Below are positions 2,592 to 26,627 of a DNA stretch of 29,125 bases, one piece after another. Under the pieces are notes generated by a model. That model was not told where the DNA came from. It worked only from the letters and a program-made list of their open reading frames with translations, and did no database searches. A program made the translations under genes and the position numbers. The DNA comes from a virus. The DNA lies in the IMG/VR virus record IMGVR_UViG_3300025769_000596, positions 1 to 29,125 of that record, one strand, 5' to 3'. Within the stretch, counting starts at the first letter, position 1. Every line of letters starts with the position of its first letter.

Positions 2592-2723
2592 TTACGACTC
2601 TTCTGTGCTGGCGTGGGTTGAATCTACCCATTCCTGATATTCAGAATGGTTAAAATCTGCGGGGTAGAGTTCCTCGCATGTTGGCTCGTAGTTGTGGAGT
2701 TCGTCGTTCATCATGTTTTCCAT
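2592..2723 (-). CDS. small acidic protein (43 aa)
   Basis: A 43-aa protein starting MENMMNDELHNYEPTCEELY and ending in an acidic, serine-rich tail. The promoter in front of it (TTGCAA, 16 bases, TATATT, six bases, ATG) and its first codons resemble those of the gene at 6684-6890 (MENEMTN...), so the two are probably related cassettes. The strongly acidic small product is typical of phage early proteins, but no function can be assigned. Confidence 0.65.
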   Translation of the reverse strand: MENMMNDELHNYEPTCEELYPADFNHSEYQEWVDSTHASTEES

Positions 2724-2729
2724 AGTTAA

Positions 2730-2757
2730 AATATAGTCTATTCTTAGGTTATTGCAA
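2730..2757 (-). promoter_or_regulatory. sigma70-type promoter with ATG at +1
   Basis: Minus strand TTGCAA (2752-2757), 16-base spacer, TATATT (2730-2735), then exactly six bases to the ATG at 2723. The flank CTTTTTCTTGCA is shared with the promoter at 6897-6925. Confidence 0.65.
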
Positions 2758-2790
2758 GAAAAAGTTTTAATTATTAATTATATAATTAAA

Positions 2791-2865
2791 TGGTAGGCTG
2801 GGTGAGACTCGAACTCACAACCAACGGCTTAAAAGGCCGCTGCTCTACCATTGAGCTACCAGCCC
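2791..2865 (-). tRNA. tRNA-Lys(UUU)
   Basis: Read on the minus strand this is a complete 75-nt cloverleaf. The acceptor stem pairs GGGCTGG with CCAGCCT (first pair G-U). The D arm is GCTC/GAGC. The anticodon arm is GCGGC, loop CTTTTAA, GCCGT, giving anticodon TTT. The T arm is GTGAG TTCGAGT CTCAC, with discriminator A and an encoded CCA end. No intron is visible. It stands alone between small leftward genes and ends eight bases upstream of an AT run. Confidence 0.95.
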
Positions 2866-2873
2866 AAAAGGGG

Positions 2874-3071
2874 TTAGTCAACCCGTTGGATTTTACCAAT
2901 GATCCCACCCTTAGCAAAGGAACGGATCCCATATTGCTGGTGCTCTCCGCTATATTTGTAGGCAGTGAAGTAATGAGATTTGTCAACGATGGGAGCAGAG
3001 GTCACATAAGTATTGACGGTTCCATCTTGACGCTTGTAAACGAACGTGTATTTTTCAGTTGGGAATTGCAT
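2874..3071 (-). CDS. small protein, paralogue of the gene at 4110-4340
   Basis: A 65-aa protein starting MQFPTEKYTFVYKRQDG. It aligns with the gene at 4110-4340: both have a KYTFVY/KFTFIY strand, DTYVTSAPI or NTYVTSAPI, then HYFTAYKY or HHFIAYKY, then G-x-RSF or G-x-RRF. The reading frame extends 29 codons further upstream, but that part runs into the next gene and has no counterpart in the paralogue, so the start at 3071 is better. The beta-strand pattern suggests a compact fold resembling a protein-interaction domain. Function is unknown. Confidence 0.75.
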   Translation of the reverse strand: MQFPTEKYTFVYKRQDGTVNTYVTSAPIVDKSHYFTAYKYSGEHQQYGIRSFAKGGIIGKIQRVD

Positions 3072-3096
3072 AGTATTTTTCGCTTTCTGTTTATTA

Positions 3097-3330
3097 TTAT
3101 TTATTGAGGTTAATGTAACTGGTTTTTTTATTGTAAAGGAAATTGCGAACCTCTTCAAGTGATTTGCTCATCTTATCTATTCGTTCAACGTAGAATTCAT
3201 TACCATTTGAAGGGTAATTATTTAGACCATCGGCAAGGGATTCTAGTCTACCACTTAGTGCAGCGAGATAGCCAGTAATGGCAAAAGATTCTAGTTCTTT
3301 GGAGTGGAAGTTTTCAACGTCTTTGTTCAT
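3097..3330 (-). CDS. hypothetical helical protein (77 aa)
   Basis: A 77-aa protein starting MNKDVENFHSKELESFAITGY, with long amphipathic helices (LAALSGRLESLADGL and RIDKMSKSLEEVRNFLY), possibly a coiled-coil hairpin. It is the first gene after a near-perfect sigma70 promoter, and its ATG coincides with the predicted transcription start. The gene at 2874-3071 lies 25 bases downstream and is probably co-transcribed. No family is recognised. Confidence 0.75.
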   Translation of the reverse strand: MNKDVENFHSKELESFAITGYLAALSGRLESLADGLNNYPSNGNEFYVERIDKMSKSLEEVRNFLYNKKTSYINLNK

Positions 3331-3336
3331 ACAAGT

Positions 3337-3365
3337 AATTTAGTTTATTTTTTATTGTTTGTCAA
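3337..3365 (-). promoter_or_regulatory. strong sigma70-type promoter with ATG at +1
   Basis: Minus strand TTGACA at 3360-3365 (full consensus), 17-base spacer, TAAATT at 3337-3342, then six bases to the ATG at 3330. The spacing places the first transcribed base at the A of the start codon. Confidence 0.75.
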
Positions 3366-3419
3366 GCTCAGAGTGATTATTTTTCTATTTGATTAAGAAA
3401 AACGGTGGTCATTTTTCCT

Positions 3420-3464
3420 TCATCGGGACCATTCAGGATTTAATATCATATTGTTATTTTTCAT
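3420..3464 (-). pseudogene. remnant 14-codon reading frame behind a hairpin promoter
   Basis: An ATG with exact 6-base spacing from the extended -10 of hairpin copy 1 opens a frame of only 14 codons (MKNNNMILNPEWSR, then TGA). Its first codons match the start of the 47-aa gene at 4426-4569 (MNNNNMTIK...), also at the DNA level over about 19 bases. I read it as the decayed or recombined stump of such a cassette. A genuine micropeptide cannot be excluded. Confidence 0.45.
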
Positions 3465-3470
3465 ACTTCA

Positions 3471-3509
3471 ACTGTAGCATATGGGGTAGGACATTTACGG
3501 TCCAACCCC
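3471..3509 (-). promoter_or_regulatory. hairpin/extended -10 element, copy 1
   Basis: On the + strand GGGGTAGGAC (3483-3492), a 7-base loop ATTTACG, then GTCCAACCCC (3500-3509). On the minus strand this is followed directly by TGC-TACAGT (extended -10, 3471-3479), then six bases to an ATG. It has no good -35 box. It drives only the remnant at 3420-3464. Confidence 0.7.
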
Positions 3510-3534
3510 AAAGAAACTTGAAAAAAGATTTTTA

Positions 3535-3562
3535 TTGCTTTGTTCTATTGTTATTGTATTAT
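3535..3562 (+). promoter_or_regulatory. sigma70-type promoter with ATG at +1
   Basis: Plus strand TTGCTT (3535-3540), 16-base spacer, TATTAT (3557-3562), then exactly six bases to the ATG at 3569. It repeats, on the other strand, the spacing of the leftward genes. Confidence 0.55.
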
Positions 3563-3568
3563 TTTGGA

Positions 3569-3946
3569 ATGGCAACTTTTTGGGACATCGATATCAAAGT
3601 TAAAGTTTACTTCAATCTGCATCGCAAGCTGTTTTCTGTAGTTAATATAAAGACAGGAAAAGTTATAGATTATTCTTACGGCTTGTCATTGAATGATCCT
3701 GAATTCAGGGTTCAGCAAGGAGGCAGAAGAAGAGTTCTGCGCGAGCAAACAAAAAATGTTCATGCCTTTGTGGTTGGCAATCTGGATCTTTGCTATCCTG
3801 TGCCCAGCGAAGCTATAGAAACAACATATGATCCTTATAAATATAATTCCTTTGTATTAAAGTATAATAAAAAACCTATTACAAAAGCTTATAAAACTTT
3901 TCTAAAAGTAAAAGATAATAAAGCCCAAATTTATACTTTACTATAA
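3569..3946 (+). CDS. conserved phage protein, LHRKLFSV...KNVHAFV family
   Basis: A 125-aa protein, the only rightward gene inside the leftward small-gene block. The frame is open 60 codons further upstream, but that stretch lies over a promoter-hairpin repeat and has no ribosome site. The ATG at 3569 follows a -10 box by six bases. The middle has the signature of a widespread phage family of unknown function as I recall it: VYFNLHRKLFSV, a GKVI-x-Y segment, then R-RVLREQTKNVHAFVVG. After that comes an extra 45-residue lysine- and tyrosine-rich tail. It is followed by repeat copy B and a bidirectional terminator. Confidence 0.75.
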   Translation: MATFWDIDIKVKVYFNLHRKLFSVVNIKTGKVIDYSYGLSLNDPEFRVQQGGRRRVLREQTKNVHAFVVGNLDLCYPVPSEAIETTYDPYKYNSFVLKYNKKPITKAYKTFLKVKDNKAQIYTLL

Positions 3947-3962
3947 TTATATAATTCATAAA

Positions 3963-4070
3963 CCGTTGATCATCAAAGACTTACGCAAAGCGCCCCCGGG
4001 GGCAGACGTAAGTCGTTGCTATGCAACAACTTAGGGGTGTTAGCTAGAGCAGCTGCCGTGCCAACCTAAG
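3963..4070 (+). repeat. GC-palindrome element, copy B (core inverted)
   Basis: It has the same order of parts as copy A: a TTGA-tca-TCAA hairpin, a 31-bp core at 3981-4011, the hairpin GTTGC/GCAAC, then the tail GGGGTGTTAGCTAGAGCAG and GTGCCAACC at 4058-4066. The core here reads TTACGCAAAGCG...CAGACGTAA, the exact reverse complement of the core of copy C at 5239-5269, while both flanks keep the orientation of copy A. Confidence 0.85.
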
Positions 4071-4074
4071 CGTG

Positions 4075-4102
4075 AAAAAAGCTCCCTTTTGGGAGCTTTT
4101 TT
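4075..4102. terminator. bidirectional rho-independent terminator
   Basis: AAAAAA, GCTCCC, TTTT loop, GGGAGC, TTTTTT: a perfect six-base stem with A and T runs on both sides. It works for the rightward gene ending at 3946 and for the leftward gene ending at 4110. Confidence 0.9.
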
Positions 4103-4109
4103 CTTGACA

Positions 4110-4340
4110 TTACCAGCGCGGGATTGGGATATTTTCTCCAGTGTTATTGCAATGAATATGGGAGAGCAGATTCACCTTGTTGAATCTGCGAGTGCCAGAC
4201 ACTTGCCCTTCCTGCTTATACTTATAAGCAATGAAGTGATGACGGTGATTTTCAATCGGTGCGGAAGTGACATAGGTGTCAACGTTCCCATTTTCAGATT
4301 GATAGATGAAGGTGAATTTTTGGTTTTCGATTTTATTCAT
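4110..4340 (-). CDS. small protein, paralogue of the gene at 2874-3071
   Basis: A 76-aa protein starting MNKIENQKFTFIYQSENG. It shares DTYVTSAPI, HFIAYKYK and G-x-RRF with the 65-aa protein at 2874-3071 and has a longer histidine- and asparagine-containing tail. The promoter is hairpin copy 2, but the -10 box is 29 bases upstream of the ATG, giving a leader of about 23 nt. It is thus the exception to the leaderless pattern of its neighbours. It ends just before the bidirectional terminator. Function is unknown. Confidence 0.75.
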   Translation of the reverse strand: MNKIENQKFTFIYQSENGNVDTYVTSAPIENHRHHFIAYKYKQEGQVSGTRRFNKVNLLSHIHCNNTGENIPIPRW

Positions 4341-4369
4341 AATATATTTCTAGTGTTGTTGTTGGTATT

Positions 4370-4408
4370 ATTGTATCAGGTGGGGTAGGACATTTGCCGT
4401 CCCACCCC
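4370..4408 (-). promoter_or_regulatory. hairpin/extended -10 element, copy 2
   Basis: Arms GGGGTAGGAC (4382-4391) and GTCCCACCCC (4399-4408) around ATTTGCC. On the minus strand TGA-TACAAT (4370-4378) follows. Compared with copies 1, 4 and 5 the loop differs and the unpaired A on the 3' arm is C. Confidence 0.7.
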
Positions 4409-4425
4409 TAAAAAAAGTGCATTAA

Positions 4426-4569
4426 TTATTCGCATTCGTGGCACATGAACCCATCGATATTGGTCCATTCGTCGGCCTCATCGCGGGTGATTTGCGAGTT
4501 TTCGCCACAGCCGCAGCAGCAAACTGAAAGGGTGTCGTCATTTTTTATTGTCATATTGTTATTGTTCAT
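4426..4569 (-). CDS. mini zinc-ribbon protein (47 aa)
   Basis: A 47-aa protein starting MNNNNMTIKNDDTLSVCCCG and ending FMCHECE. Two Cys-x2-Cys knuckles (C18/C21 and C43/C46), 21 residues apart, give a zinc-ribbon layout that nearly fills the protein. Such mini zinc proteins are often phage or host regulators, but no target can be named. The ATG is six bases after the extended -10 of hairpin copy 3, so the transcript is probably leaderless. It is too short for many gene finders. Confidence 0.75.
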   Translation of the reverse strand: MNNNNMTIKNDDTLSVCCCGCGENSQITRDEADEWTNIDGFMCHECE

Positions 4570-4575
4570 GATATT

Positions 4576-4614
4576 ATCTTAGCATATGGGGTAGGACATT
4601 TGTCGTCCCACCCC
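4576..4614 (-). promoter_or_regulatory. hairpin/extended -10 element, copy 3
   Basis: Arms GGGGTAGGAC (4588-4597) and GTCCCACCCC (4605-4614), loop ATTTGTC. On the minus strand TGC-TAAGAT (4576-4584), then six bases to the ATG at 4569. Confidence 0.7.
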
Positions 4615-4636
4615 TAAAAAAGTGTAATTATTTTTA

Positions 4637-4852
4637 TTATATGTTATCAATAGATGCGTTAAGGAAAACCGAGGAATTATTCTCCAGTGTTTGTATTATA
4701 TGATCTTGTTCTGAGATCTTTTCTTTTAAGTAATCTTTTCTTTCGTTTGAAAGAGCTTTCTTTTGCTCGTCCTCAAGCAGACGCTTGTGACTTGAGGCTG
4801 AAGTGATGATGCCGTAGTAAAGGGACATATTGAAGTCTTTCGTTGTTTTCAT
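4637..4852 (-). CDS. hypothetical helical protein (71 aa)
   Basis: A 71-aa protein starting MKTTKDFNMSLYYGIITSASS. The middle is a long charged helix (HKRLLEDEQKKALSNERKDYLKEK) with a heptad-like leucine pattern, probably a short coiled coil. It is driven by hairpin copy 4, which has a perfect extended -10 (TGCTATAAT) exactly six bases before the ATG. No family is recognised. Confidence 0.75.
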   Translation of the reverse strand: MKTTKDFNMSLYYGIITSASSHKRLLEDEQKKALSNERKDYLKEKISEQDHIIQTLENNSSVFLNASIDNI

Positions 4853-4858
4853 GGTTCA

Positions 4859-4897
4859 ATTATAGCATAAAGGGTAGGACATTTATGGTCCAACCCC
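4859..4897 (-). promoter_or_regulatory. hairpin/extended -10 element, copy 4 (consensus -10)
   Basis: Arms AGGGTAGGAC (4871-4880) and GTCCAACCCC (4888-4897), loop ATTTATG. On the minus strand TGC-TATAAT (4859-4867), then six bases to the ATG at 4852. It is the best -10 match of the five copies. Confidence 0.8.
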
Positions 4898-4910
4898 TAA
4901 AAAAGTGTGA

Positions 4911-5111
4911 TTATTTTTTGCTCTTCCAAACCAAAGACAGGACGCCTGTCTTTTGATTTTTCAGATACACATTTGATTTTTTGGATTCGGCAAAGTCAAT
5001 AGCAGCACAGAGGCCACCTGTCTCACGGTCAATCGGAAACTCGACCTGCTCGCACAGGCAGAATGCGCTGCCGAAGTTGACGGGGACCATGTAAACCTTT
5101 TGATTTTTCAT
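4911..5111 (-). CDS. hypothetical protein (66 aa)
   Basis: A 66-aa protein starting MKNQKVYMVPVNFGSAFCLC. The frame extends ten codons upstream over the promoter element, so I start at 5111, six bases after TGCTATGAT. It contains three cysteines (FCLCEQ and GGLCAA), a CAAIDFAESKK helix and a C-terminal beta stretch. No function is recognised. It is the first cassette of the hairpin-promoter series. Confidence 0.7.
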   Translation of the reverse strand: MKNQKVYMVPVNFGSAFCLCEQVEFPIDRETGGLCAAIDFAESKKSNVYLKNQKTGVLSLVWKSKK

Positions 5112-5117
5112 AAGATT

Positions 5118-5156
5118 ATCATAGCACAAAGGGTAGGACATTTACGGTCCAACCCC
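5118..5156 (-). promoter_or_regulatory. hairpin/extended -10 element, copy 5
   Basis: Arms AGGGTAGGAC (5130-5139) and GTCCAACCCC (5147-5156), loop ATTTACG. On the minus strand TGC-TATGAT (5118-5126), six bases to the ATG at 5111. The GGAC/GTCC dyad is centred near -32. Confidence 0.75.
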
Positions 5157-5181
5157 TAAAAAAGTGAAACTTTTTTTGAGG

Positions 5182-5269
5182 GTAAGGTTGGCACGTTTCT
5201 TGTATCGTATCTTTTGTAAGTCGTTGATTATCAAGGACTTACGTCTGCCCCCGGGGGCGCTTTGCGTAA
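5182..5269 (+). repeat. GC-palindrome element, copy C (rearranged)
   Basis: It has the hairpin AAGTC-g-TTGA-tta-TCAA-g-GACTT and then the 31-bp core at 5239-5269 in the orientation of copy A. The GCAAC hairpin and tail found in copies A and B are missing on the right. Instead GGTTGGCAC (5186-5194), the inverted form of the GTGCCAACC tail motif, stands on the left. The element fills the gene-free gap between the 66-aa gene and the lysin terminator. Confidence 0.75.
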
Positions 5270-5316
5270 GTCGTTCATACAGAGGGGCTTACAGAATATA
5301 ATTTATATTATATAAT

Positions 5317-5345
5317 AAAAAAAGAGAGGGAGCCGAAGCTCCCTC
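5317..5345 (-). terminator. rho-independent terminator with UUCG loop
   Basis: On the minus strand GAGGGAGC, TTCG, GCTCCCTC, then seven T. A perfect eight-base stem with the very stable UUCG tetraloop sits about 60 bases after the lysin stop. Copy A is followed by a mutated version of the same sequence. Confidence 0.92.
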
Positions 5346-5404
5346 CTTGTACTCATGACATAACCAAACATACAACAATAAACCAAGTTAGGGGAGAAAG
5401 TCAA

Positions 5405-5845
5405 CTATAATTTATAAAAAATGTGGCGTCCGATCTTGGCGACAGGCTTTTGACCTTTTGCCCAATAAGGTTTCTTTTTCATCCATGTTGCGTGATAGTG
5501 GTTGCTGTAACCAACCAAAGCACGATTCATTGAGCTAACATTCTTCGCAAAGTATATTGCCATCTTTGCCTGTGGTAAGTCAAGCAAGTATTCAAGATCC
5601 TTTAAACTCTTGCCATTCCAGCATGAAAACTGCCATTTGGCTAAACAGACTTGTTTTGCTGTTTGTTTTCTTTCGATTGCTCGTTGTTGAATAACGGCAC
5701 AAACCGCGCCCATTCCATTGTTACCCTCTCCTCTTGCTTCTGCAAGTAGCGTGATTGCCACAATTTTTTGTTCATTTGTAATTGATGAAGCCAGTGCCGA
5801 GATTGATTGGGATAGAATAAGGACATAAAGTAATATTGCTTTCAT
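5405..5845 (-). CDS. secreted SleB-type cell wall hydrolase (probable endolysin)
   Basis: A 146-aa protein. Residues 1-20 are a Sec-type signal peptide or signal-anchor (MKAILLYVLILSQSISALAS). The rest fits the SleB/CwlJ Hydrolase_2 family: LLAEARGEG at 33-41 with the conserved glutamate E36, GMGAVCAVIQQRA, an FSCWNGK loop, and the C-terminal YSNHYHA then PYWA and K-IGRHIFYKL. Family members cut peptidoglycan glycan strands. With export by the host Sec system it could act as a signal-arrest type lysin. Three cysteines (C50, C67, C75) could form disulfides in the periplasm. It has its own TTGACA promoter with the ATG at +1 and a strong terminator, so it is a single-gene unit. No holin is evident nearby. 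Confidence 0.88.
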   Translation of the reverse strand: MKAILLYVLILSQSISALASSITNEQKIVAITLLAEARGEGNNGMGAVCAVIQQRAIERKQTAKQVCLAKWQFSCWNGKSLKDLEYLLDLPQAKMAIYFAKNVSSMNRALVGYSNHYHATWMKKKPYWAKGQKPVAKIGRHIFYKL

Positions 5846-5851
5846 ACGTAT

Positions 5852-5879
5852 AAGATAACAGATTAAAGGTTATTGTCAA
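5852..5879 (-). promoter_or_regulatory. lysin promoter with ATG at +1
   Basis: Minus strand TTGACA (5874-5879, full consensus), 16 bases, TATCTT (5852-5857), six bases to the ATG at 5845. The -35 box ends one base before the stop codon of the upstream gene. Confidence 0.7.
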
Positions 5880-5880
5880 A

Positions 5881-6171
5881 TTATATTTCTCGCATTGCTG
5901 TCGCATATATCGGATCTCCGACATGGCGAACTCCCATAACTTCCCACGGTGCAACATCAGTTGAGATATCGTCCTCAAAACAATAGTAATCATGATGACG
6001 ATTTTTCCAATCATACATATAGATGTATGTTTTGCCGTTCCATGTGGAAGGGACTTCATCGCCATCACAGGCGACACAATAAGCTGCATGTTTATATGCC
6101 GCTGAAAAGGTTTTGCCGTTTGGCATAGTGTAAGTGACCATGCCTGTTTTAGTATCCTTGTTAACTTTCAT
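5881..6171 (-). CDS. hypothetical protein (96 aa)
   Basis: A 96-aa protein starting MKVNKDTKTGMVTYTMPNGK. It is rich in tyrosine and histidine (NRHHDYYCFEDD) with an AAYCVACDGDE segment that holds two of its three cysteines, so metal binding is possible but not shown. The beta-rich N-terminal third looks like a small barrel. The promoter is a TTGC-type box with six-base spacing to the ATG. No family is recognised. Confidence 0.7.
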   Translation of the reverse strand: MKVNKDTKTGMVTYTMPNGKTFSAAYKHAAYCVACDGDEVPSTWNGKTYIYMYDWKNRHHDYYCFEDDISTDVAPWEVMGVRHVGDPIYATAMREI

Positions 6172-6177
6172 GATATA

Positions 6178-6205
6178 AATTTAACAGTTTTTCAGGATAT
6201 TGCAA
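6178..6205 (-). promoter_or_regulatory. TTGC-type promoter with ATG at +1
   Basis: Minus strand TTGCAA (6200-6205), 16-base spacer TATCCTGAAAAACTGT, TAAATT (6178-6183), six bases to the ATG at 6171. The spacer is identical to that of the promoter at 6627-6654. Confidence 0.65.
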
Positions 6206-6224
6206 GGAAAAAGAATGCTTCATC

Positions 6225-6449
6225 TTAGGTTTGTCGCCGAGCGATGCGCTCGTTTTCTTCGCTCGCGTAGACCATATATGCTTCTTCCCGGATAGGGGTT
6301 CGGTGGCCTTCGACCTTTGGTGCCTCTGTGTGGAGCACAGTCGTCAGATAATCCCAACCAGCGTGGAATCCAGCTTCAAATGCATCTTTCTTGATCTGGT
6401 CAAGCGTGGCTCTTAACTTACTAGGCTCATCTTCTTTCATATCTCTCAT
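6225..6449 (-). CDS. hypothetical charged protein (74 aa)
   Basis: A 74-aa protein starting MRDMKEDEPSKLRATLDQIKK. An alternative start is the ATG three codons later. It is mostly helix with a GFHAGWDYL segment resembling the amphipathic pieces of other small phage proteins, and it ends in a run of charged residues. The predicted transcription start lies about five bases before the first ATG, so the leader is almost absent. Function is unknown. Confidence 0.7.
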   Translation of the reverse strand: MRDMKEDEPSKLRATLDQIKKDAFEAGFHAGWDYLTTVLHTEAPKVEGHRTPIREEAYMVYASEENERIARRQT

Positions 6450-6460
6450 GTCTTGTTAAT

Positions 6461-6488
6461 ATTATGTCAGTTTTAAAGATTAACGCAA
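6461..6488 (-). promoter_or_regulatory. TTGC-type promoter
   Basis: Minus strand TTGCGT (6483-6488), 16 bases, CATAAT (6461-6466). It shares CTCTTTTTCCTTGC with the promoter at 6178. The ATG is 11 bases downstream, not six. The -35 box overlaps the stop region of the upstream gene. Confidence 0.5.
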
Positions 6489-6620
6489 GGAAAAAGAGTG
6501 GTTATTTTTTCCCAGCTCCCAAGATCTCAATCCGTCCAAGTGTTTGCGTGAGGCCTTGTCTCTTGCTAATTTTTTGGCTGCGGTTCGTGCTAGGAATTGT
6601 TTGAATTCTTTATCTTTCAT
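6480..6620 (-). CDS. small basic protein (46 aa)
   Basis: A 46-aa protein starting MKDKEFKQFLARTAAKKLAR, strongly basic and probably helical, ending NNHSFSLR. The last codons run into the promoter of the downstream gene. The promoter places its ATG exactly six bases after the -10. A short basic peptide could bind nucleic acid, but no motif proves this. It is easily missed because of its size. Confidence 0.6.
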   Translation of the reverse strand: MKDKEFKQFLARTAAKKLARDKASRKHLDGLRSWELGKNNHSFSLR

Positions 6621-6626
6621 GCTTAT

Positions 6627-6654
6627 AGTATGACAGTTTTTCAGGATAATACAA
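6627..6654 (-). promoter_or_regulatory. TTGT-type promoter with ATG at +1
   Basis: Minus strand TTGTAT (6649-6654), the spacer TATCCTGAAAAACTGT also found at 6178-6205, CATACT (6627-6632), six bases to the ATG at 6620. Confidence 0.6.
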
Positions 6655-6683
6655 GCGTTTTTTTAAAAAAAGTATCATTATTT

Positions 6684-6890
6684 TTATTTGGTTTCAATGT
6701 TCATGTCCCAAACTCTGACAGTATCCTTGAGAAAGTCAAGGAACTTTTCCTCTCCGAAGTGGCTTCTCATTTCGTCTACGATATTGAAGTCTCCTTTCAT
6801 CATGGGGATCAAGTTCATCTCTTCCATTTGAAACATGATATTGTCAATCTGTCCTGTGTGTCCTAAGGTGTTTGTCATTTCGTTTTCCAT
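6684..6890 (-). CDS. small acidic protein (68 aa)
   Basis: A 68-aa protein starting MENEMTNTLGHTGQIDNIMFQ. It is methionine-rich and acidic (IMFQMEEMNLIPMMKGD), ending in a helical FGEEKFLDFLKDTVRVWDM. Its promoter and first codons resemble those of the 43-aa gene at 2592-2723. It is the first leftward gene after the divergent control region. No domain is recognised. Confidence 0.75.
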   Translation of the reverse strand: MENEMTNTLGHTGQIDNIMFQMEEMNLIPMMKGDFNIVDEMRSHFGEEKFLDFLKDTVRVWDMNIETK

Positions 6891-6896
6891 GGTTAT

Positions 6897-6925
6897 AATG
6901 TAGCTTAATTTTTATTTGTATGCAA
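6897..6925 (-). promoter_or_regulatory. TTGC-type promoter with ATG at +1
   Basis: Minus strand TTGCAT (6920-6925), 17 bases, TACATT (6897-6902), six bases to the ATG at 6890. It is preceded by CTTTTTC as in the related promoters. Confidence 0.65.
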
Positions 6926-7223
6926 GAAAAAGTTTCAATTACTTTTACACATGTGGACCCCCTCCCCCCCTCATTATCTGTGCCAACCCCTACCCTTTTT
7001 TTAAAATAATTTTGTTATTGACATTTCTATATACGGTGGGGGGACACTTTCTTCAATATGTAATTCATTTTCAGACAAACTAAACCCAGCCAATAAAAAA
7101 TAAAACCCATACCCCTCCCCCTATTTAATAAAAATCAATAAACATTAACAAAAATCAATATAAATAAAAAACAAAAAAAAATAAGCCAGCCTCCTGAAAT
7201 AGGTGAAATCAGATAAATATTAT
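6926..7223. other. gene-free divergent control region
   Basis: About 300 bases between divergent promoters with no credible gene. It holds two polypyrimidine/polypurine tracts (CCCCCTCCCCCCC near 6959-6971 and GGTGGGGGG near 7035-7043), a fourth GTGCCAACC motif at 6980-6988, and an A-rich stretch with AAAAATCAATA twice, 20 bases apart (7130-7140 and 7150-7160). An origin or a transcription switch region are both possible. Nothing decides. Confidence 0.45.
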
Positions 7224-7252
7224 TTGACAGCCGCCCACCTATTCATTATTAT
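7224..7252 (+). promoter_or_regulatory. strong promoter of the rightward glycan operon
   Basis: Plus strand TTGACA (7224-7229, full consensus), 17-base spacer, TATTAT (7247-7252), seven bases to the ATG at 7260. It probably drives 7260-13207, since those genes overlap or are close together. Confidence 0.75.
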
Positions 7253-7259
7253 ATACAGT

Positions 7260-7574
7260 ATGGATTATTTAATGGTATACCTAGATGAAAGCCGGGAAAA
7301 ACGGGCTGCGATTCCTGACGATGAAGGGGTGTACTATGATTCGGTTGATTTTGATGAGTACACCGAAGATATGTCTGCAGCGGAAGTGGTGGTATTAGAA
7401 TCTGAGGATTTTTATAAGAAAGTCAGAGACCCTGATGCAGATGGTAAATTTTTCTCATGTAAGTTTGCTGGTAGGTATGTGTCTAATATGAAAGTGTGCG
7501 ATAGTATTGAAGCTTTAGGATTTACTACTTTCTTTACTACTGTTATTAATGAACATATAAAACAAGAAGAATGA
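7260..7574 (+). CDS. hypothetical acidic protein, first gene of the glycan operon
   Basis: A 104-aa protein starting MDYLMVYLDESREKRAAIPDD. The frame is open 19 codons further upstream, but that would place the start before the promoter. The ATG at 7260 sits seven bases after the -10. It is very acidic (DSVDFDEYTEDMSAAE) with a hydrophobic core near VVVLESEDFYKKV. Its stop overlaps the start of the glycosyltransferase gene (ATGA), so the two are translationally coupled. No family is recognised. Confidence 0.75.
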   Translation: MDYLMVYLDESREKRAAIPDDEGVYYDSVDFDEYTEDMSAAEVVVLESEDFYKKVRDPDADGKFFSCKFAGRYVSNMKVCDSIEALGFTTFFTTVINEHIKQEE

Positions 7575-8605: not shown

Positions 8606-8630
8606 GCTATGGCATTAGTAAGATCAGTTT

Positions 8631-14243: not shown

Positions 14244-14271
14244 ACATATATAGTGTAATATATTTTACTAT
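14244..14271. promoter_or_regulatory. compact divergent promoter region
   Basis: Only 28 bases separate the starts of the leftward GT4 gene and the rightward phoH-like gene. Both -10 boxes must lie in the shared AT-rich sequence. TATATT at 14259-14264 ends seven bases before the phoH ATG. AGTGTAA, also seen before 20628, 22697 and 26668, is present at 14252-14258. Confidence 0.4.
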
Positions 14272-15003: not shown

Positions 15004-15014
15004 ATTAAATCACA

Positions 15015-15020
15015 TATAAT
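15015..15020 (+). promoter_or_regulatory. TATAATATA-type promoter with ATG at +1
   Basis: TATAAT at 15015-15020 within TATAATATA, exactly six bases before the ATG at 15027. No good -35 box is visible. The same core occurs before 20628 and 26235. Confidence 0.6.
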
Positions 15021-15026
15021 ATATCA

Positions 15027-15389
15027 ATGAGTATTATTTATTGTTCTCAATGCGGAGCTAAAAGCAGCGCAGGTTCTAAATTTTGTTCTTCGTGTGGTAA
15101 CGCTTTATCCAGTTTTGCTCCACAAAAAAAAGTGATTCAAGAGGTAAATCCACAAATAGAATTAGAAGATAGTTCTTTCAGGAGGCCTTCTAGATTAGCA
15201 TATGAAATACAAGATGGAGGTAATAATAAATTTAGCGCAAAAGAACTTTTTAATGCATCTCCTGTAGGTAATTCTGATAGGTTAGATAGACCTGTAGATC
15301 AGGTTCAAGATTTAACTCGCGAAGAATATTTAGCTCAATCATTAAAAGAATGTGCTCCTAGGGTAATAAAAGATATAGATGAAAGTTAA
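15027..15389 (+). CDS. zinc-ribbon protein upstream of the sigma factor
   Basis: A 120-aa protein. An N-terminal zinc ribbon occupies residues 1-28 (C6-x2-C9 and C20-x2-C23, YCSQCGAKSS...KFCSSCGNAL). The rest is low-complexity, acidic and probably disordered until a helical end (REEYLAQSLKECAP). The gene overlaps the sigma factor gene by 11 bases. A small zinc-ribbon partner translated together with a phage sigma factor could be a transcription co-activator, by analogy with T4 gp33 acting with gp55, but there is no sequence evidence for that role. Confidence 0.8.
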   Translation: MSIIYCSQCGAKSSAGSKFCSSCGNALSSFAPQKKVIQEVNPQIELEDSSFRRPSRLAYEIQDGGNNKFSAKELFNASPVGNSDRLDRPVDQVQDLTREEYLAQSLKECAPRVIKDIDES

Positions 15390-16092
15390 AAAGAAAAATT
15401 TTGAAGAAATGTATGAAAAAATTGATGAAGTAATAAAAAAAAGAAGATCTAAATGGAGGCTTAGAGCGATAACTTGGTTTGATTTTGAAGATATTGAACA
15501 GGTAATAAAACTACACATCTATAAAAAATGGCATCTTTGGGATCAGTCTAGGCCTATAGAACCTTGGGTTAACAGGATAGCTACAAATCAGATAAGAAAT
15601 ATTATACGTAATAATTATACTTCTTTCGCTAAACCTTGTTTATCATGTCCATTTAATACTAGTAAAGGTATTGAAATAGTTTATGAAAACTCATGCGGTT
15701 TTACACCAAGCAAAACTCAATGTAATGAATGCCCTTTATATGCTAAATGGGAAAAATTAAAAAAACCAGCATATGATATAAAGATGACTGTTAGTTTAGA
15801 GAATCATCAGAATTATTATATGAGCTTTGAGGGATCTAGTATTCAGGATTACGCTTCTGCTGAGCAAAAATTGCATTCGTTAATGAAAAGGGCTTTAACT
15901 AACAAACAGTTCTTTATATATAAAATGTTTTTTATTGATAATTTAAATGATGAAGATGTCGCTAAAATATTAAAGTTTAAAACAAATGAGAGTGGAAGAA
16001 AAGCTGGATATAAACAAATAAAAAATTTAAAAAAAATGCTTTATGAAAAAGCAAAAACCATAATAAAGGAAAACGATTTGTTTTCATCATGA
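15379..16092 (+). CDS. phage RNA polymerase sigma factor with cysteine-rich insert
   Basis: A 237-aa protein. Residues 20-80 fit sigma70-family region 2: DFEDIEQVIKLHIYKKWHLWDQSRPIEPWVNRIATNQIRNIIRNN, with the core-binding and -10-recognition helices. Then comes an insert with five cysteines (C87, C90, C106, C115, C118; CLSC...CGFT...CNEC), probably a zinc site. Residues 172-228 (TNKQFFIYKMFFIDNLNDEDVAKIL...) look like region 4 HTH. It would redirect host polymerase to phage promoters, in the manner of T4 gp55. It sits directly ahead of the packaging and capsid genes, which fits control of late genes. The start overlaps the zinc ribbon gene. Confidence 0.8.
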   Translation: MKVKKKNFEEMYEKIDEVIKKRRSKWRLRAITWFDFEDIEQVIKLHIYKKWHLWDQSRPIEPWVNRIATNQIRNIIRNNYTSFAKPCLSCPFNTSKGIEIVYENSCGFTPSKTQCNECPLYAKWEKLKKPAYDIKMTVSLENHQNYYMSFEGSSIQDYASAEQKLHSLMKRALTNKQFFIYKMFFIDNLNDEDVAKILKFKTNESGRKAGYKQIKNLKKMLYEKAKTIIKENDLFSS

Positions 16093-16093
16093 C

Positions 16094-20571: not shown

Positions 20572-20594
20572 AAAAGAAAAGTTTAAAAGTCACT

Positions 20595-20621
20595 TTGAAA
20601 GTTGCTTAGTGTAACTATAAT
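20595..20621 (+). promoter_or_regulatory. TATAATATA-type promoter with ATG at +1
   Basis: TATAAT at 20616-20621 within TATAATATA, six bases before the portal ATG at 20628. A TTGAAA at 20595-20600 gives a short 15-base spacer. AGTGTAA immediately precedes the -10 region. Confidence 0.65.
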
Positions 20622-20627
20622 ATAGAC

Positions 20628-22682
20628 ATGCCTAGAAAATATACAAAAAAATCAAATTATTGGGATAAATTTTCATCTGGTAATGAAAGTGACAATACTT
20701 CTTTAGAAAGTCTAGTCCAAAAAAACCCTTCTGAGCCTCAATTGTTAGGCGATCCTTTTTATAGCTTTGACAGCAAAGCTAATTATTCTAGAAATGGAGG
20801 AGAATCTTCGACTTCAACAAGAAGAAACAGGATATCTACTCAGCCTAAATTTAATAAATACGCTAATATTAGAGAAGGTTTGTTGCCATTTGAGTCGTCA
20901 ATTAATGGTTACAACGTAAGGGATGCTATTGAATTATGTCAAAAAGCATATGCTAATGTTGCTATATTTAGAAATGCTGTAGACATTATGTCTGAATTTT
21001 CTAATGCCGAAATAAACTTAGAGGGCGGCAGCGCAAAAGCTAGAGACTTTTTCAGCAAGTGGATGAGGTATATAAAAATTTGGAAAGTAAAAGATCAATA
21101 CTTCAGGGAATATTATCGTAGCGGAAATATCTTTTTTTATAAATTAAATGCTAAATTTTCGTTAGATGATTTTCAATCTATCTTAAAATCTTATGCTAAT
21201 GCTGATGATCTATCTTACGATAACGTTGAAAAGATTTATAATTACCCTACTTCTTACAATGTCAAAAACTCTATTCCTGTACAGTATACCCTCTTAAATC
21301 CATTTTTTCTTGTGGCAAATAGATCTACATCTTGGAAACAGGTTGTATATGAAAAGGTTCTTTCTGAGTATGAATTAGAAAGATTACAGAATCCAAAAAA
21401 TGAACAGGATAAAATAATTTTTGAAAGTTTAGATGCAGAGTCTAGAGATAAAATTAAAAACGGTCAATGGTCTGTAGATGGTTTAAAAATACAATTAAAT
21501 CCTACTGATGTTATTTATTCTTTTTATAAGAAACAAGATTATGAGCCATTTGCTGTGCCGTTTGGCTTTGCCGTTTTGGATGATATTAACTTTAAGTTAG
21601 AAATGAAAAAGATAGATCAAGCGATCTGTCGTACAATTGAAAATGTTATTCTTTTAATCACTTTAGGTAATACCCCTGATAAAGGTGGCATTAATCATAA
21701 AAATATTTCCGCAATGCAATCTCTATTGAGTAATCAATCTGTTGGTCGCGTCCTTGTTGCGGATTACACAACAAAAGCTGATTTTATCATTCCTGATATG
21801 AATAAAGTATTGGGGTATGAGAAATATAAAATTGTTAACGAAGATATTAAAGAAGGTCTACAGAATATTTTAATTGGTTCTGAGAAGTTTGCAAATACAA
21901 CAGTTAAAGCTCAGGTATTTTTTGAGAGATTGCGAGAGGCTAGAAATGCTTTCTTAAATGATTTCTTGCAACCAGAAATGGAATTGATATTTAAAAACTT
22001 AGGCTTTAAAGGTAAATGTCCTCTAGCTAAGTTTGAAGAAGTGTCTATTAAAGATGAAACGCAATTTAATAGAGTTGTAACCAGAATGATGGAATTAGGC
22101 ATCTTGCCCCCTGAAGAAGGTATTAGAGTTATCGAAACTGGTATTTATCCTTCTGGAGAAGAGCTCGCTGCTGCTCAAGAAAAATTTGTTGAGCAAAGAA
22201 AGAAAGGATTCTATAATCCTATTATAGGAGGCGTCCCTTCTATAGCCCCTCCAATGGGGAGTGATGTTGAGGAAGTTCCCGAAGAAAAAAGCTCTGAAAA
22301 AGTACCTCCAGTAAAAAATAAAGTGCCAAATGAAAGAGGTCGTCCAGTTGGGGCAATTAAAGCTGATGTTTATTCAAGAGAAGCTATTGCGGAAGTTTTT
22401 GATTTAACTAAAGGATTGTATTCTGATGTCCAGACTTTATTGAAACAAAAATATAATAAAAAACGCTTAACAAAAGATCAAAAGAAGTTAGCTGAAAATG
22501 TTAGTGAAGCTATTATTATAGGTTCAGAAAGTACTAACTGGAAAGATGCAGCTGAAACGGTTTTAAAAGATCCGTCTACTTTAGATAAGTTGGGCGTGAT
22601 GAAAGCTGTGCAAGATCTGGCTGCACAGCACGATTTAAATACCTATGCAGCCGCTTTATTATATCACAGTAATAAAAAATAA
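20628..22682 (+). CDS. portal protein
   Basis: A 684-aa protein. The N-terminal 75 residues are polar and disordered. Then comes the portal-like core: AIELCQKAYANVAIFRNAVDIMSEF, the wing strand QYFREYYRSGNIFFYKL, NPTDVIYSFYKKQDYEPFAVPFGFAVLDDI, the long stem helix region FKLEMKKIDQAICRTIENV, and ANTTVKAQVFFERLREARNAFLNDFLQPEM near 405-440. The C-terminal 120 residues are charged and helical. Position after the terminase, size and these segments identify the dodecameric DNA gate of the capsid. No single-motif proof exists, so confidence is below that of the terminase. Its transcript may be leaderless. Confidence 0.85.
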   Translation: MPRKYTKKSNYWDKFSSGNESDNTSLESLVQKNPSEPQLLGDPFYSFDSKANYSRNGGESSTSTRRNRISTQPKFNKYANIREGLLPFESSINGYNVRDAIELCQKAYANVAIFRNAVDIMSEFSNAEINLEGGSAKARDFFSKWMRYIKIWKVKDQYFREYYRSGNIFFYKLNAKFSLDDFQSILKSYANADDLSYDNVEKIYNYPTSYNVKNSIPVQYTLLNPFFLVANRSTSWKQVVYEKVLSEYELERLQNPKNEQDKIIFESLDAESRDKIKNGQWSVDGLKIQLNPTDVIYSFYKKQDYEPFAVPFGFAVLDDINFKLEMKKIDQAICRTIENVILLITLGNTPDKGGINHKNISAMQSLLSNQSVGRVLVADYTTKADFIIPDMNKVLGYEKYKIVNEDIKEGLQNILIGSEKFANTTVKAQVFFERLREARNAFLNDFLQPEMELIFKNLGFKGKCPLAKFEEVSIKDETQFNRVVTRMMELGILPPEEGIRVIETGIYPSGEELAAAQEKFVEQRKKGFYNPIIGGVPSIAPPMGSDVEEVPEEKSSEKVPPVKNKVPNERGRPVGAIKADVYSREAIAEVFDLTKGLYSDVQTLLKQKYNKKRLTKDQKKLAENVSEAIIIGSESTNWKDAAETVLKDPSTLDKLGVMKAVQDLAAQHDLNTYAAALLYHSNKK

Positions 22683-22696
22683 GTGTAACAATTACT

Positions 22697-24286
22697 ATGT
22701 ATAAGTACAAGACGCGGTTCAATAATGTTGTGACTGCTTCAATAAATTTTGATAATAATTTATTGTTGTCGCAAGCATCATTAGAGCCTATCAAGGGGTT
22801 AATTCCTAAATCTGTTAACTTAGAAAAAAATGTAGATTTAATTGGCGCTGCTTTTAACGGAGCAGTAGTCAATGCATTTAATAAAAACGGAGATGGAATT
22901 GATACTGATACCGCTATTGAATTTAAAAATTATTTTACGCATAAACCTACTAATATAGAACATAAAAAACAAAAAGTAGTAGGTCATATTGTTAATTCCG
23001 CTTTTTCTTCTTTCGGAGAAAATAAGATTTTAACAGACGAAGATGTCAAGGGGTCGTTAGATCCTTTTAATATCGCTTTAGCTGCCGTTGTTTACAAAAC
23101 TGTAGATAAAGATTTTGCTGAAGCACTTTTAGAATCTAATAATCCTGATTCAAACTTATATCAAAAAATAAGCGCAAGCTGGGAGATAGGATTTAATAAT
23201 TATAATATCGCCTTGGGTAGCGATAAGCTTCATGAGGCTGAGATTATTACTAAAGAAGAGCAAATAAATGAATTTAAAAAGTACTTACGAGGTTTTGACG
23301 GAACTGGATTTACAGATGATGGGATTCCAGTTTATCGTCTCGTAACTGGACGAATTTATCCGTTGGGCATCGGTTTCACGACCAATCCTGCGGCAAATGT
23401 AAATGGTGTAATTATTGATGATGCAGCTCAAGACACAATGGATAAAAACAAAGCGAATGATAAAGACGGTGAATTTAATACACCTGAAGTATTAAAAATT
23501 CGTGAAAATTTTTCACAAAAAGAAAAAAAGCCTGTAAATACAACCAAAACTAATATTATGGATCTAGAACAGATATTATCAGATTTAAAGACCGTCCTTG
23601 CTGAAAAGCAGACGAAAGAATCATTCAGTGAAGAGGCAGTTGCTAGCATCTCTGCAAAAATCGCTGAAAGCATTAAAGAAAAGAGTGAAGAAATTCAGTC
23701 TCAAATTCTTTCAGCTGAAGAAGCTAAAGCGACAGCAGTTGCCGAAGCTGAAGAGTTGAAAAAAAGCTTAGCTGAAAACGATGAAAAGTTAGATAGCGCT
23801 TTTTCTAAAATTAACGAGTTAGAATCTATTCTTTCTGCACAGGCTGCTCAGGAATTATTTAGTTCCAGAATGAGTACCCTTGATACAGAATATGATTTTG
23901 ACGACGCTGACCGTAAGTTGTTAGCTGAAGAATTAAACACTTTAGATAGCTCAGAAGAAGCTTTTGCTTCTTATCAAGAAAAGCTAACTGTGATTTATCG
24001 TCACAAGAGTAAAGCTTTTAAAGATGAGCAAGAAAAGATTTTCCAAGAAAGATTAGAAGCTGAATTAGCTAAGCGTATTCAGAAGACTGAAGAAATTGAA
24101 GTCGTAGAAGCAACTGCAGAAAAAACTGAAACTCCTGAAGTCGAAGTTGAAACTGCATTAGCAAACGCTCAAACTGAAGAAGCTTCTTTACCTGCTCAGA
24201 ACATTGAGCCTACTGAAGAGAAGGTTTCTTGGAAAGATAAATTAAGTAAGGCTTTTTCAAAAGAAAATATAACAATTAATTTTTAA
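22697..24286 (+). CDS. prohead protease fused to scaffold
   Basis: A 529-aa protein. Residues 45-180 are a prohead serine protease: LIGAAFNGAVVNAFNKNGDG, NIEHKKQKVVGHIV with candidate catalytic H89, and YQKISASWEIGF with candidate serine S159 or S161. From about 285 it becomes an acidic, alanine- and glutamate-rich coiled coil (MDLEQILSDLKTVLAEK... EEAKATAVAEAEELKKSL), typical of a scaffold. An in-frame ATG at 23558 (codon 288) stands exactly at this boundary and could give a separate scaffold, as lambda C/Nu3 does. There is no good ribosome site there. It lies 14 bases after the portal stop, with AGTGTAA in the gap. Confidence 0.85.
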   Translation: MYKYKTRFNNVVTASINFDNNLLLSQASLEPIKGLIPKSVNLEKNVDLIGAAFNGAVVNAFNKNGDGIDTDTAIEFKNYFTHKPTNIEHKKQKVVGHIVNSAFSSFGENKILTDEDVKGSLDPFNIALAAVVYKTVDKDFAEALLESNNPDSNLYQKISASWEIGFNNYNIALGSDKLHEAEIITKEEQINEFKKYLRGFDGTGFTDDGIPVYRLVTGRIYPLGIGFTTNPAANVNGVIIDDAAQDTMDKNKANDKDGEFNTPEVLKIRENFSQKEKKPVNTTKTNIMDLEQILSDLKTVLAEKQTKESFSEEAVASISAKIAESIKEKSEEIQSQILSAEEAKATAVAEAEELKKSLAENDEKLDSAFSKINELESILSAQAAQELFSSRMSTLDTEYDFDDADRKLLAEELNTLDSSEEAFASYQEKLTVIYRHKSKAFKDEQEKIFQERLEAELAKRIQKTEEIEVVEATAEKTETPEVEVETALANAQTEEASLPAQNIEPTEEKVSWKDKLSKAFSKENITINF

Positions 24287-24291
24287 AGGTT

Positions 24292-24960
24292 ATGGCACTA
24301 AGATTATTACCATTCAGACAATATAGCGAACAAGATGTAATCAACTTGTTTGCCAGCAACACTGCTGATACCAGTCCATCTACAAATGGAGCGGGTTCCG
24401 CAGGTGTGTTCGTTAAGGTATCAGCTGGTAATTTGGATTCCGATCCAATTACTTATGCTACAAACGGATATTTAGGTAAAACTGATTATCCTTTTGTTGG
24501 CGCAGCACAATACCCAGAAGTTCCTCTTAAATTTACAACGGCTACTGCAGGAGAACCTGTCCTCGGTATTACGTTAAATCAGACTCTTCAACAAGATGAG
24601 AATGGAGAGAAACTTCTATATAATCCTGTTAAAGCTGCAGAGTTACAAGCGGTTTTAAGTGGTCAGGCTTCTCCTGTTGCCACAAGAGGTATGTTTACAT
24701 TAACCGATGATGCAGTTGATTGGGCTGACAGTAGCATGACTCCCAATTCGCATCTTGTTGTTTCAAGCAACGCTGGCAAAGTAAGTGGTTTATTAGCTAG
24801 TAATGCTGGTCCGTTCACTGGTGATTATACAATCGTCGGTAGAATTTTAGGTACTGGACAACGTGTTTCCTCTAACGGTCAAAGCGATCAGTTCGCTGGA
24901 ACTACTACTGGTAAATACGCTTTGGTTCAAATTGATTGTGTTAACCCAACCTCCTTGTAA
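24292..24960 (+). CDS. probable capsid decoration/head protein
   Basis: A 222-aa protein starting MALRLLPFRQYSEQDVINLFA. It is beta-rich and glycine/threonine/serine-rich, with few charges and no cysteine except near the end (IDCVNP). The position between scaffold and major capsid protein, and the FRQYSEQDVINLFA start, suit a head decoration or stabilisation protein of phages with this gene order. The sequence alone does not prove it. It has an AAAGG ribosome site five bases before the ATG and follows the scaffold by five bases. Confidence 0.65.
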   Translation: MALRLLPFRQYSEQDVINLFASNTADTSPSTNGAGSAGVFVKVSAGNLDSDPITYATNGYLGKTDYPFVGAAQYPEVPLKFTTATAGEPVLGITLNQTLQQDENGEKLLYNPVKAAELQAVLSGQASPVATRGMFTLTDDAVDWADSSMTPNSHLVVSSNAGKVSGLLASNAGPFTGDYTIVGRILGTGQRVSSNGQSDQFAGTTTGKYALVQIDCVNPTSL

Positions 24961-24986
24961 TTAGAAAGGCTTTATTAATATATAAT

Positions 24987-26147
24987 ATGAAAATAGTTTT
25001 AAAGAGAACAGACGAACAGGTTGAGCTAATTAAAGCTTTAGCATCCAAGAATCGTGAGGTAGCCTATGACGCTCAAGTAGCTTTGGCTGAATTCATTGGT
25101 CCGGTCTTAGCTGAAGTCATTAACAACGCTCCAACCGTTTCTAACTTATTCACAAGTTTACAATTCAACGCTGAAGACAACCCTTCAATTCCTCTTGATT
25201 TATACTATGATATTTTCGATGAAGATTATATCAAAGTTTATAGTCAATCCGTTGCAGGAGGTCTTCCTCAAAATATCGTTCAGCCAACAGCTTCTGAGCT
25301 CAAAATCGCAACTTATCGTTTAGATAGCGCTGTTGCTTTTGACAAGAAGTATGCCGCTAAGAGTCGCCTTGATGTCGTTAGCAAATCTTTCACTCGCGTA
25401 GCTCAAGAAGTTATGTTGAAGCAAGAAAGAACATCTGCTAATCTTCTTATGACTGCATTAGCAACGGCTTCTACGGGTAACAGCGCTACAGCAACAGATA
25501 ACTTGCATGTTTTCCGTTCTGCTGCTGCTAACCGTTTCGTTCTTGACGATTTAAATAAAATGTTCACCAAGATTAAGAGAATTAACTCTTCATTCGTTGG
25601 GGGAACTCCTTCTGGAGCTCGTAGAGGTTTAACAGATCTCATTGTTTCTCCTGAAATTGTCGAGCAAATTCGTGGAATGGCTTATAATCCTATTTCAACA
25701 AAAGGGCCTAATTTGACAGCTGCTCCTGCAGCCGGTGATGACTCAATCACAGCTCCAGAGGCAATTCGTCAGGAATTATTTAATTCTGGAGGTTTACCTG
25801 AGTTTTATGGTGTTTCTATTATGGAAATATTGGAATTAGGTGATGGCAAGAAATTCAACACTATCTTCTCTTCTGTCGGTGGTGCTGCTACAACCTATGC
25901 TGCTCATACAGTAGCTGGTGGTGGAACCACTTTTGCTCAAGCAAGTGAACAGGTTGTTGTCGGTCTTGACAGATCTCGCGATTCTCTTATTCGTGCGGTA
26001 GCAGTTGATTCTGACACAGGTTCTGAATTCAACTTACAGGCTGACGATCAATATACCATTCGCCAAGGTAAAATTGGTTACTTTGGAGCTCTCGAAGAGG
26101 GACGTATGGTTCTTGATACTCGCGCTCTCATTGGTCTTATCGTTTAA
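24987..26147 (+). CDS. major capsid protein (HK97-like fold)
   Basis: A 386-aa protein. The N-terminal helix (KRTDEQVELIKALASKNREVAYDAQVALAEFIGPVLAEVI) is followed by the usual segments: an extended-loop region SIPLDLYYDIFDEDYIKVYSQ, the spine helix SRLDVVSKSFTRVAQEVMLKQERTSANLLMTAL, the P-domain DLIVSPEIVEQIRGMAYNP, and an A-domain end DQYTIRQGKIGYFGALEEGRMVLDTRALIGLIV. Order, length and the position after the protease/scaffold and before a strong terminator identify the main shell protein. Codons appear more GC-rich than in neighbouring genes, as expected for high expression. An AT-rich TATTAATATATAAT box abuts its ATG. Confidence 0.92.
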   Translation: MKIVLKRTDEQVELIKALASKNREVAYDAQVALAEFIGPVLAEVINNAPTVSNLFTSLQFNAEDNPSIPLDLYYDIFDEDYIKVYSQSVAGGLPQNIVQPTASELKIATYRLDSAVAFDKKYAAKSRLDVVSKSFTRVAQEVMLKQERTSANLLMTALATASTGNSATATDNLHVFRSAAANRFVLDDLNKMFTKIKRINSSFVGGTPSGARRGLTDLIVSPEIVEQIRGMAYNPISTKGPNLTAAPAAGDDSITAPEAIRQELFNSGGLPEFYGVSIMEILELGDGKKFNTIFSSVGGAATTYAAHTVAGGGTTFAQASEQVVVGLDRSRDSLIRAVAVDSDTGSEFNLQADDQYTIRQGKIGYFGALEEGRMVLDTRALIGLIV

Positions 26148-26168
26148 TATCAATCAGATCCACTACAT

Positions 26169-26200
26169 GGGTGCTGCCTGAAAGGGCAGCACCCTTTTTT
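26169..26200 (+). terminator. strong rho-independent terminator after the capsid gene
   Basis: GGGTGCTGCC, loop TGAAAG, GGCAGCACCC, then six T: a perfect ten-base GC-rich stem 21 bases after the capsid stop. It separates capsid expression from the following genes. Confidence 0.95.
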
Positions 26201-26222
26201 ATTGAATTTTCAATTTTAACTT

Positions 26223-26228
26223 TATAAT
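26223..26228 (+). promoter_or_regulatory. TATAATATA-type promoter with ATG at +1
   Basis: TATAAT at 26223-26228 within TATAATATA, exactly six bases before the ATG at 26235. It re-initiates transcription after the capsid terminator. Confidence 0.6.
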
Positions 26229-26234
26229 ATATAT

Positions 26235-26627
26235 ATGGCTAAAAAAATTACTAAGTCCAAGAAGAAGTCTGAATTAGACGATTTAAATTTTGCTGACGGC
26301 AAAGTTCATGAAGATCCTGATATAGCTAGAGTAAGAGAGTTGGAGGTGTGTTTAGGAATAGAAAAGTCAAACCCTTTCGGCACGTCAAATTTACAAATTT
26401 TCAAAGAAAAATTAAGTGAGATGACGTTAATTGACATGCAGCATATGTGCGAAAAAATTGGCATTTTTGCTAGCGGTTCGAGAATGGATATTAAAAGTAA
26501 ATTATTAAGAGAATTTAAATCTACTCATAAACCTACAATAGCTATGTCAGTTGAGAACCCAGCTTTAAAGTTGGATCCTAATGACCCTGAGCATCAAAAA
26601 GTCATAAAAATATTAGGAGAAATTTAG
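26235..26627 (+). CDS. SAP-like domain protein
   Basis: A 130-aa protein. A lysine-rich start (MAKKITKSKKKSE) is followed by a helical stretch and, at 60-95, a segment matching the SAP pattern (LSEMTLIDMQHMCEKIGIFASGSRMDIKSKLLREF): helix, GI-x-x-SGSR turn, second helix. SAP folds usually bind DNA. In this position between capsid and fibre genes it might be a head completion or connector protein that contacts DNA. It is a single gene with its own promoter. The function is inferred only. Confidence 0.65.
   Translation: MAKKITKSKKKSELDDLNFADGKVHEDPDIARVRELEVCLGIEKSNPFGTSNLQIFKEKLSEMTLIDMQHMCEKIGIFASGSRMDIKSKLLREFKSTHKPTIAMSVENPALKLDPNDPEHQKVIKILGEI

Follow-up and report, generated by a model that had tools for sequence, protein, structure and literature searches.

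Leaderless phage mRNAs are known for single genes, such as cI and cro of PY54, where RACE demonstrated them (PMC4488713), and on a genome scale for the Thermus phage phiYS40, whose middle and late mRNAs are mostly leaderless and which reportedly causes IF2 to increase and IF3 to decrease in infected cells (PMC3594737); as a translation strategy this is known so far from few phages only. Bacterial genomes contain a recognised class of leaderless genes, the TA-led ones, in which TANNNT lies about 12 bp upstream of the start (PMC3160421), and a leaderless -10 motif has been described for Deinococcus-Thermus (PMC12340547). For E. coli there is a reported precedent of leaderless translation that withstands kasugamycin (PMC5230787). 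Bacillus phage AR9 has leaders of 26-491 nt (PMC5312081).

The closest precedent for the virus family studied here is phiYS40, likewise a phage that would express many genes from leaderless mRNAs; there, however, these are middle and late genes in a Thermus host rich in leaderless genes, whereas here the promoters are host-type and early-looking, in an unrelated low-GC family known from sequence alone. In the TA-led genes the geometry is identical, with the T that opens TANNNT lying 12 bases ahead of the start, but they are genes of bacteria, and in Deinococcus the motif has no companion element; most promoters here also possess a -35 box, or else a dyad with an extended -10, and in sister clades the predicted leader has a fixed length of 3 nt. 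Similar, too, are lambda cI and PY54 cI and cro, where a strong sigma70 promoter yields an mRNA that opens with AUG, yet in those temperate phages one or two regulatory genes are concerned and here a whole array of small genes. AR9, similar in being a large phage with promoter classes, shows the opposite arrangement of long leaders.

The window, by which we mean the whole stretch of DNA analysed, is the complete IMG/VR contig (29,125 bp, 34% GC). It encodes PhoH, a zinc-ribbon protein, a sigma-70 region 2-like protein, an ERCC4-type nuclease and a terminase; the gene at 20628 is the probable portal gene, on a weak tblastn match to the portal of Bacillus phage Slash, and the protein at 24987 is highly conserved, which together with its position, instead of a family match, is why we treat it as the major capsid protein. 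In the phage collection there was no near DNA match to the window and no match to this capsid, and the terminase had distant matches only. IMG/VR held more than 160 relatives, among them two large ones, G001 (127,708 bp, capsid 97% identical) and G002 (114,009 bp, capsid 83% identical). A capsid profile also hit five MAG contigs from unrelated groups, which are most simply mis-binned virus contigs, so that we claim no host. An Rfam search of the window returned tRNA only, and a tRNA-Lys (TTT) lies at 2791-2865 (minus strand) within the early-gene array. A G+C-rich, hairpin-rich element occurs three times, once inverted (2436-2494, 3959-4017 and 5217-5275), accompanied at 2484-2558 and 4007-4081 by a 75-nt repeat, and long collagen-like repeats of GTSGSSG type in the tail region (27100-29125, plus strand) run off the contig end.

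The original prediction listed fourteen starts, on both strands, at which exactly six bases separate a -10 hexamer from the ATG. All ten minus-strand and all four plus-strand sites are present, with two corrections of detail: the hexamer at 6620 is CATACT, not TANNNT, and 3464 opens a mere 14-codon remnant. A further start, 7260, does lie at seven bases, with a perfect TTGACA, while the TAAGAT box reported before 8631 is not retained in relatives. The sites in and next to the minus-strand array are these (numbers within a motif are spacer lengths in bases):

2723..2757, minus strand: promoter and start of a 43-aa gene, TTGCAA-16-TATATT-6-ATG
3330..3365, minus strand: promoter and start of a 77-aa gene, TTGACA-17-TAAATT-6-ATG; the G001 and G002 orthologs (48% identity) have the same spacing
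3464..3503, minus strand: 14-codon remnant, dyad GGAC-N7-GTCC at 3489-3503, TACAGT-6-ATG; a copy of the 4569/4852/5111 promoter
4340..4375, minus strand: exception, lacks a -10 at six; an extended -10, TGATACAAT, would give a leader of about 20 nt
4569..4608, minus strand: gene for a 47-aa Cys-rich protein, dyad at 4594-4608, TAAGAT-6-ATG; L181 ortholog at six
4852..4891, minus strand: gene with dyad at 4877-4891 and extended -10, TGCTATAAT-6-ATG; L181 and L182 orthologs have other promoters, also at six
5111..5150, minus strand: gene with dyad at 5136-5150, TATGAT-6-ATG; six retained in L181 and G001
5845..5879, minus strand: cell-wall hydrolase gene (PF07486), TTGACA-16-TATCTT-6-ATG; six retained in L181, G001 and G002, not L182
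6171..6205, minus strand: 96-aa gene, TTGCAA-16-TAAATT-6-ATG; L181 and L202 orthologs at six
6449..6490, minus strand: exception, with a -10-like CATAAT 11 nt before the ATG that would leave a leader of about 5 nt, and no Shine-Dalgarno (SD) sequence
6620..6654, minus strand: gene with TTGTAT-16-CATACT-6-ATG; L202 and L183 orthologs at six
6890..6925, minus strand: gene with TTGCAT-17-TACATT-6-ATG
3557..3571, plus strand: L5 gp82-like gene (3569), TATTAT-6-ATG; no ortholog among the loci compared
7224..7262, plus strand: 7260 gene, TTGACA-17-TATTAT-7-ATG; offset 7 in G001 and G002 too

A scan with the 77-aa protein (3097-3330) gave no confirmed relative, although tblastn within the loci compared did find relatives. 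The dyad GGAC-N7-GTCC, with flanking GGGG/CCCC, stands directly upstream of the extended -10 at 3464, 4569, 4852 and 5111, and the same dyad is present in L165 (G001), L172 (G002) and L260 (G027). It looks like the operator of a promoter group; we rejected an intrinsic terminator, as a T-run follows on neither strand.

To avoid the selection made in the original prediction, we counted all 11 genes of the array (2592-6890), including 4340 and 6449, which it had omitted. With offset defined as the number of bases between the -10 hexamer and the ATG, at offset 6 the hexamer TANNNT begins 12 bases upstream of the ATG. TANNNT stood at this offset at 8 of the 11 starts, whereas in 5000 dinucleotide shuffles the maximum at any offset was 5 and none reached 8; for these small minus-strand genes, then, the claim that the spacing exceeds chance holds. 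All 11 starts match TATAAT in at least four of six positions at offset 6, and all 11 have a pyrimidine directly before the ATG, with a purine at the presumptive +1. For sigma70 promoters in general, Y(-1)A(+1) is the preferred initiator context, which these starts would have were the A to be +1, though the start-site preference of the host polymerase may differ.

The -10-to-ATG distance was also compared with shuffled sequence across relatives, as had been proposed, and a peak at six was found both in two-box promoters (good -35 and -10) and in homologous arrays. These two sets were used because the AT-rich background blurs a scan of all ORF starts, which, with no -35 required, gave only a broad TATAAT-like excess at 0-9 nt. 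Two-box promoters at offset 6 numbered 20, against 0.8 in shuffled sequence, in the window and G001-G004, and 27 after dereplication over 225 loci (2.9 Mb). Homologous minus-strand arrays had offset 6 in 7 of 22 genes (G001) and 7 of 19 (G002), with at most three genes at every other offset within 30 nt. A pyrimidine occupied -1 in 25 of 34 dereplicated offset-6 promoters across the family. Few two-box promoters lay nearer than six, as expected if the polymerase imposes a lower limit. The peak was absent from the control phages T4, MaeS, Slash, P-SSM2, K and SPO1.

The explanation that we favour, and think quite probable, is that the array genes and their relatives are leaderless by way of host sigma70-type promoters, with a 3-nt leader in distant clades and a looser arrangement in late genes. 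The small, individually promoted array genes would be read by the host sigma70-type RNA polymerase; with a discriminator of exactly six bases, transcription would begin at the A of the ATG, and ribosomes would load and start on the 5'-terminal AUG without an SD sequence. Distant family members would use four extra promoter bases to produce a stereotyped three-base leader, and structural genes would use extended -10 or GTGTAA promoters, with transcription starting near the ATG at a variable distance. The sequences themselves show the spacing, how it is conserved, the preference at the initiator and the missing SD; the +1 position, the use of host polymerase, the timing and the mode of translation are what we infer here, and the leaderless design of many early-type genes is a strong prediction, albeit a sequence-only one. 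It is not uniform even in the array, as 6449 has a predicted short leader and 4340 an ordinary one. The leaderless interpretation thus stands for the sigma70-type first genes, on the sharp peak at six, the Y(-1)A(+1) context, the scarcity of shorter distances and the relatives; it falls short where it was extended genome-wide, to several promoter classes and to a ribosome change.

In a set of sister clades (G004, G019-G023, G025 and G029, capsids 43-69% identical) the promoters read TTGACw-N16/17-TATACT-N7-GTT-ATGAGAGA, with the ATG at offset 10. This offset was found in 45 of 128 dereplicated TTGAC promoters, and among 63 dereplicated offset-10 cases positions 8-10 were G, T and T in 52-55. 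The natural +1 would be the G of GTT, giving a 3-nt leader, predicted as 5'-GUU-AUG-AGAGA. A second promoter set reads AGTGAGTGAGAGAAA, in which a GTG may be the start codon. The GTT|ATGAGAGA and AGTGAGTGAGAGAAA 5' ends are stereotyped at dozens of promoters (L177 and L184-L192; contigs G004 and G019-G029), and the first codons that follow are conserved over otherwise unrelated genes. On the capsid tree, spacing 10 occurs in G020-G023, G025, G019 and G004 and spacing 6 in the window contig (G000), G001 and G002; G004 and G019 carry both, and some joins of this tree rest on long branches. From this spread, leader length would vary within the family and be fixed within a promoter type. We tentatively put forward, as a possibility short of even, that promoter and start codon are fused into one element whose leader has a strict, clade-specific length, of 0 nt for the window clade and, for the distant clades, of 3 nt (GUU) followed by AUG-AGA-GA, conserved over dozens of unrelated genes. 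Were this so, the 5' end would carry a signal of its own, for loading ribosomes or stabilising the mRNA, and evolution would have switched between initiation without a leader and initiation with one of 3 nt.

The late-type (structural) genes behave differently from the array, and the relevant sites are these:

14253..14258, plus strand: GTGTAA box of PhoH, 13 nt before the start
15015..15029, plus strand: zinc-ribbon gene (15027), TATAAT-6-ATG; orthologs often have an extended box (TGATATAAT), at 4-8 nt from the ATG
15379..16092, plus strand: sigma-70 region 2-like protein, candidate reader of GTGTAA promoters
20609..20630, plus strand: probable portal gene (20628), GTGTAA box and TATAAT-6-ATG; GTGTAA retained, distance varies
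22683..22688, plus strand: GTGTAA box of the 22697 gene, 8 nt before the start
26223..26237, plus strand: 26235 gene, TATAAT-6-ATG; many orthologs have GTGTAAT-N7-ATG instead
26654..26659, plus strand: GTGTAA box of the 26668 gene, 8 nt before a GTG start

In the window, 15027, 20628 and 26235 each have TATAAT six bases before the ATG, but we rejected them as members of the fixed-six class because their spacing drifts among relatives: from 4 to 8 nt at 15027, with a GTGTAA box at variable distance at the portal gene and 26235. A fixed six over several promoter classes is thus not supported. The GTGTAA box is common to the portal, 22697, 26235, 26668 and PhoH genes, and stood 7-14 nt before the ATG in 27 of 32 listed cases in G001 and G002; it recurs at this distance upstream of many late-type genes (window late genes; L161-L173). 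It is a candidate phage-specific promoter, which the sigma-like protein may recognise. The late-type genes should have short leaders, though not of exactly zero length, their boxes lying near the ATG at variable distance.

Variable distances are what one would expect if the polymerase started over a few positions and produced very short leaders, mostly of 0-5 nt, with the A of the ATG only the commonest outcome. Two-box promoters that trail off over offsets 7-11, the sister clades at offset 10 and the late-type boxes all fit this reading, but the peak of the window clade at exactly six, with a pyrimidine at -1, favours a single +1 on the A, and we regard very short leaders as rather unlikely for these genes.

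A second alternative, which we judge improbable, is that one ancestral six-base promoter was copied often together with its gene, the spacing having no functional meaning. The upstream regions of 3464, 4569, 4852 and 5111 are indeed copies (73-84% identical), and direct repeats D1, D2 and D6 cover these promoters, so that the independent cases are fewer than fourteen; the remaining array promoters, however, are mostly 22-60% identical to one another. Spacing is also retained across large divergence, being six in relatives for 5111, 5845, 6171, 6620 and 3330 at protein identities down to 48% (3330 and 5111). The 4852 gene has three different promoters in three contigs, each at six, with protein similarity from codon 1; orthologs that keep six bases below unrelated upstream DNA argue against simple copying.

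Leaderless starts under host-type promoters bring us to the ribosome. None of the 55 starts with TANNNT at six had an SD core (GGAG, GAGG or AGGA). The contrasting statement that internal operon genes carry SD sequences is true of 689, 1288 and 1688, but operon-internal starts overall had them at 7.5-12%, near the background of 5.5-9%; the family as a whole appears SD-poor, and the absence is therefore not specific to offset-6 starts. Operons also limit the reach of the finding: 106 of the 169 called G001 genes lie in operons with gaps below 50 nt, so that genome-wide leaderlessness is not supported. The original prediction further suggested a possible change of host ribosomes during infection. 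For an action of the phage on ribosomes or initiation factors that would favour leaderless messages, phiYS40, with its reported rise in IF2 and fall in IF3, is a precedent (PMC3594737). We found no gene for S21, an S1-domain protein or IF3 (IF3_C) in 19 related records, possibly fragments, with search controls that worked, leaving a ribosome change unsupported. The leaderless set sits on promoters that look suited to unmodified host polymerase, and with SD sequences uncommon throughout no switch is needed, making such an alteration improbable. Highly improbable, finally, are mis-called starts, with translation from a downstream SD-bearing codon on a leadered message: several genes do have in-frame ATGs in their first 11 codons, but nearly all such candidates lack an SD sequence, ortholog similarity begins at codon 1, and the signal-peptide-like N-terminus of the 5845 hydrolase needs this ATG.

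Host-type phage promoters locked at six bases from the start codon, in an uncultivated family, appear to be new, as does the predicted locked 3-nt leader of related clades with its conserved first codons; we found no description of either in the open-access literature searched. If the favoured explanation is true, host-type promoters supply a widespread family (more than 160 related contigs) with messages that have little or no leader. Leaders of 0 and 3 nt on related promoters would then offer a natural comparison for ribosome loading on 5'-terminal start codons, and the rule would aid gene calling in phages whose real starts have no Shine-Dalgarno sequence.
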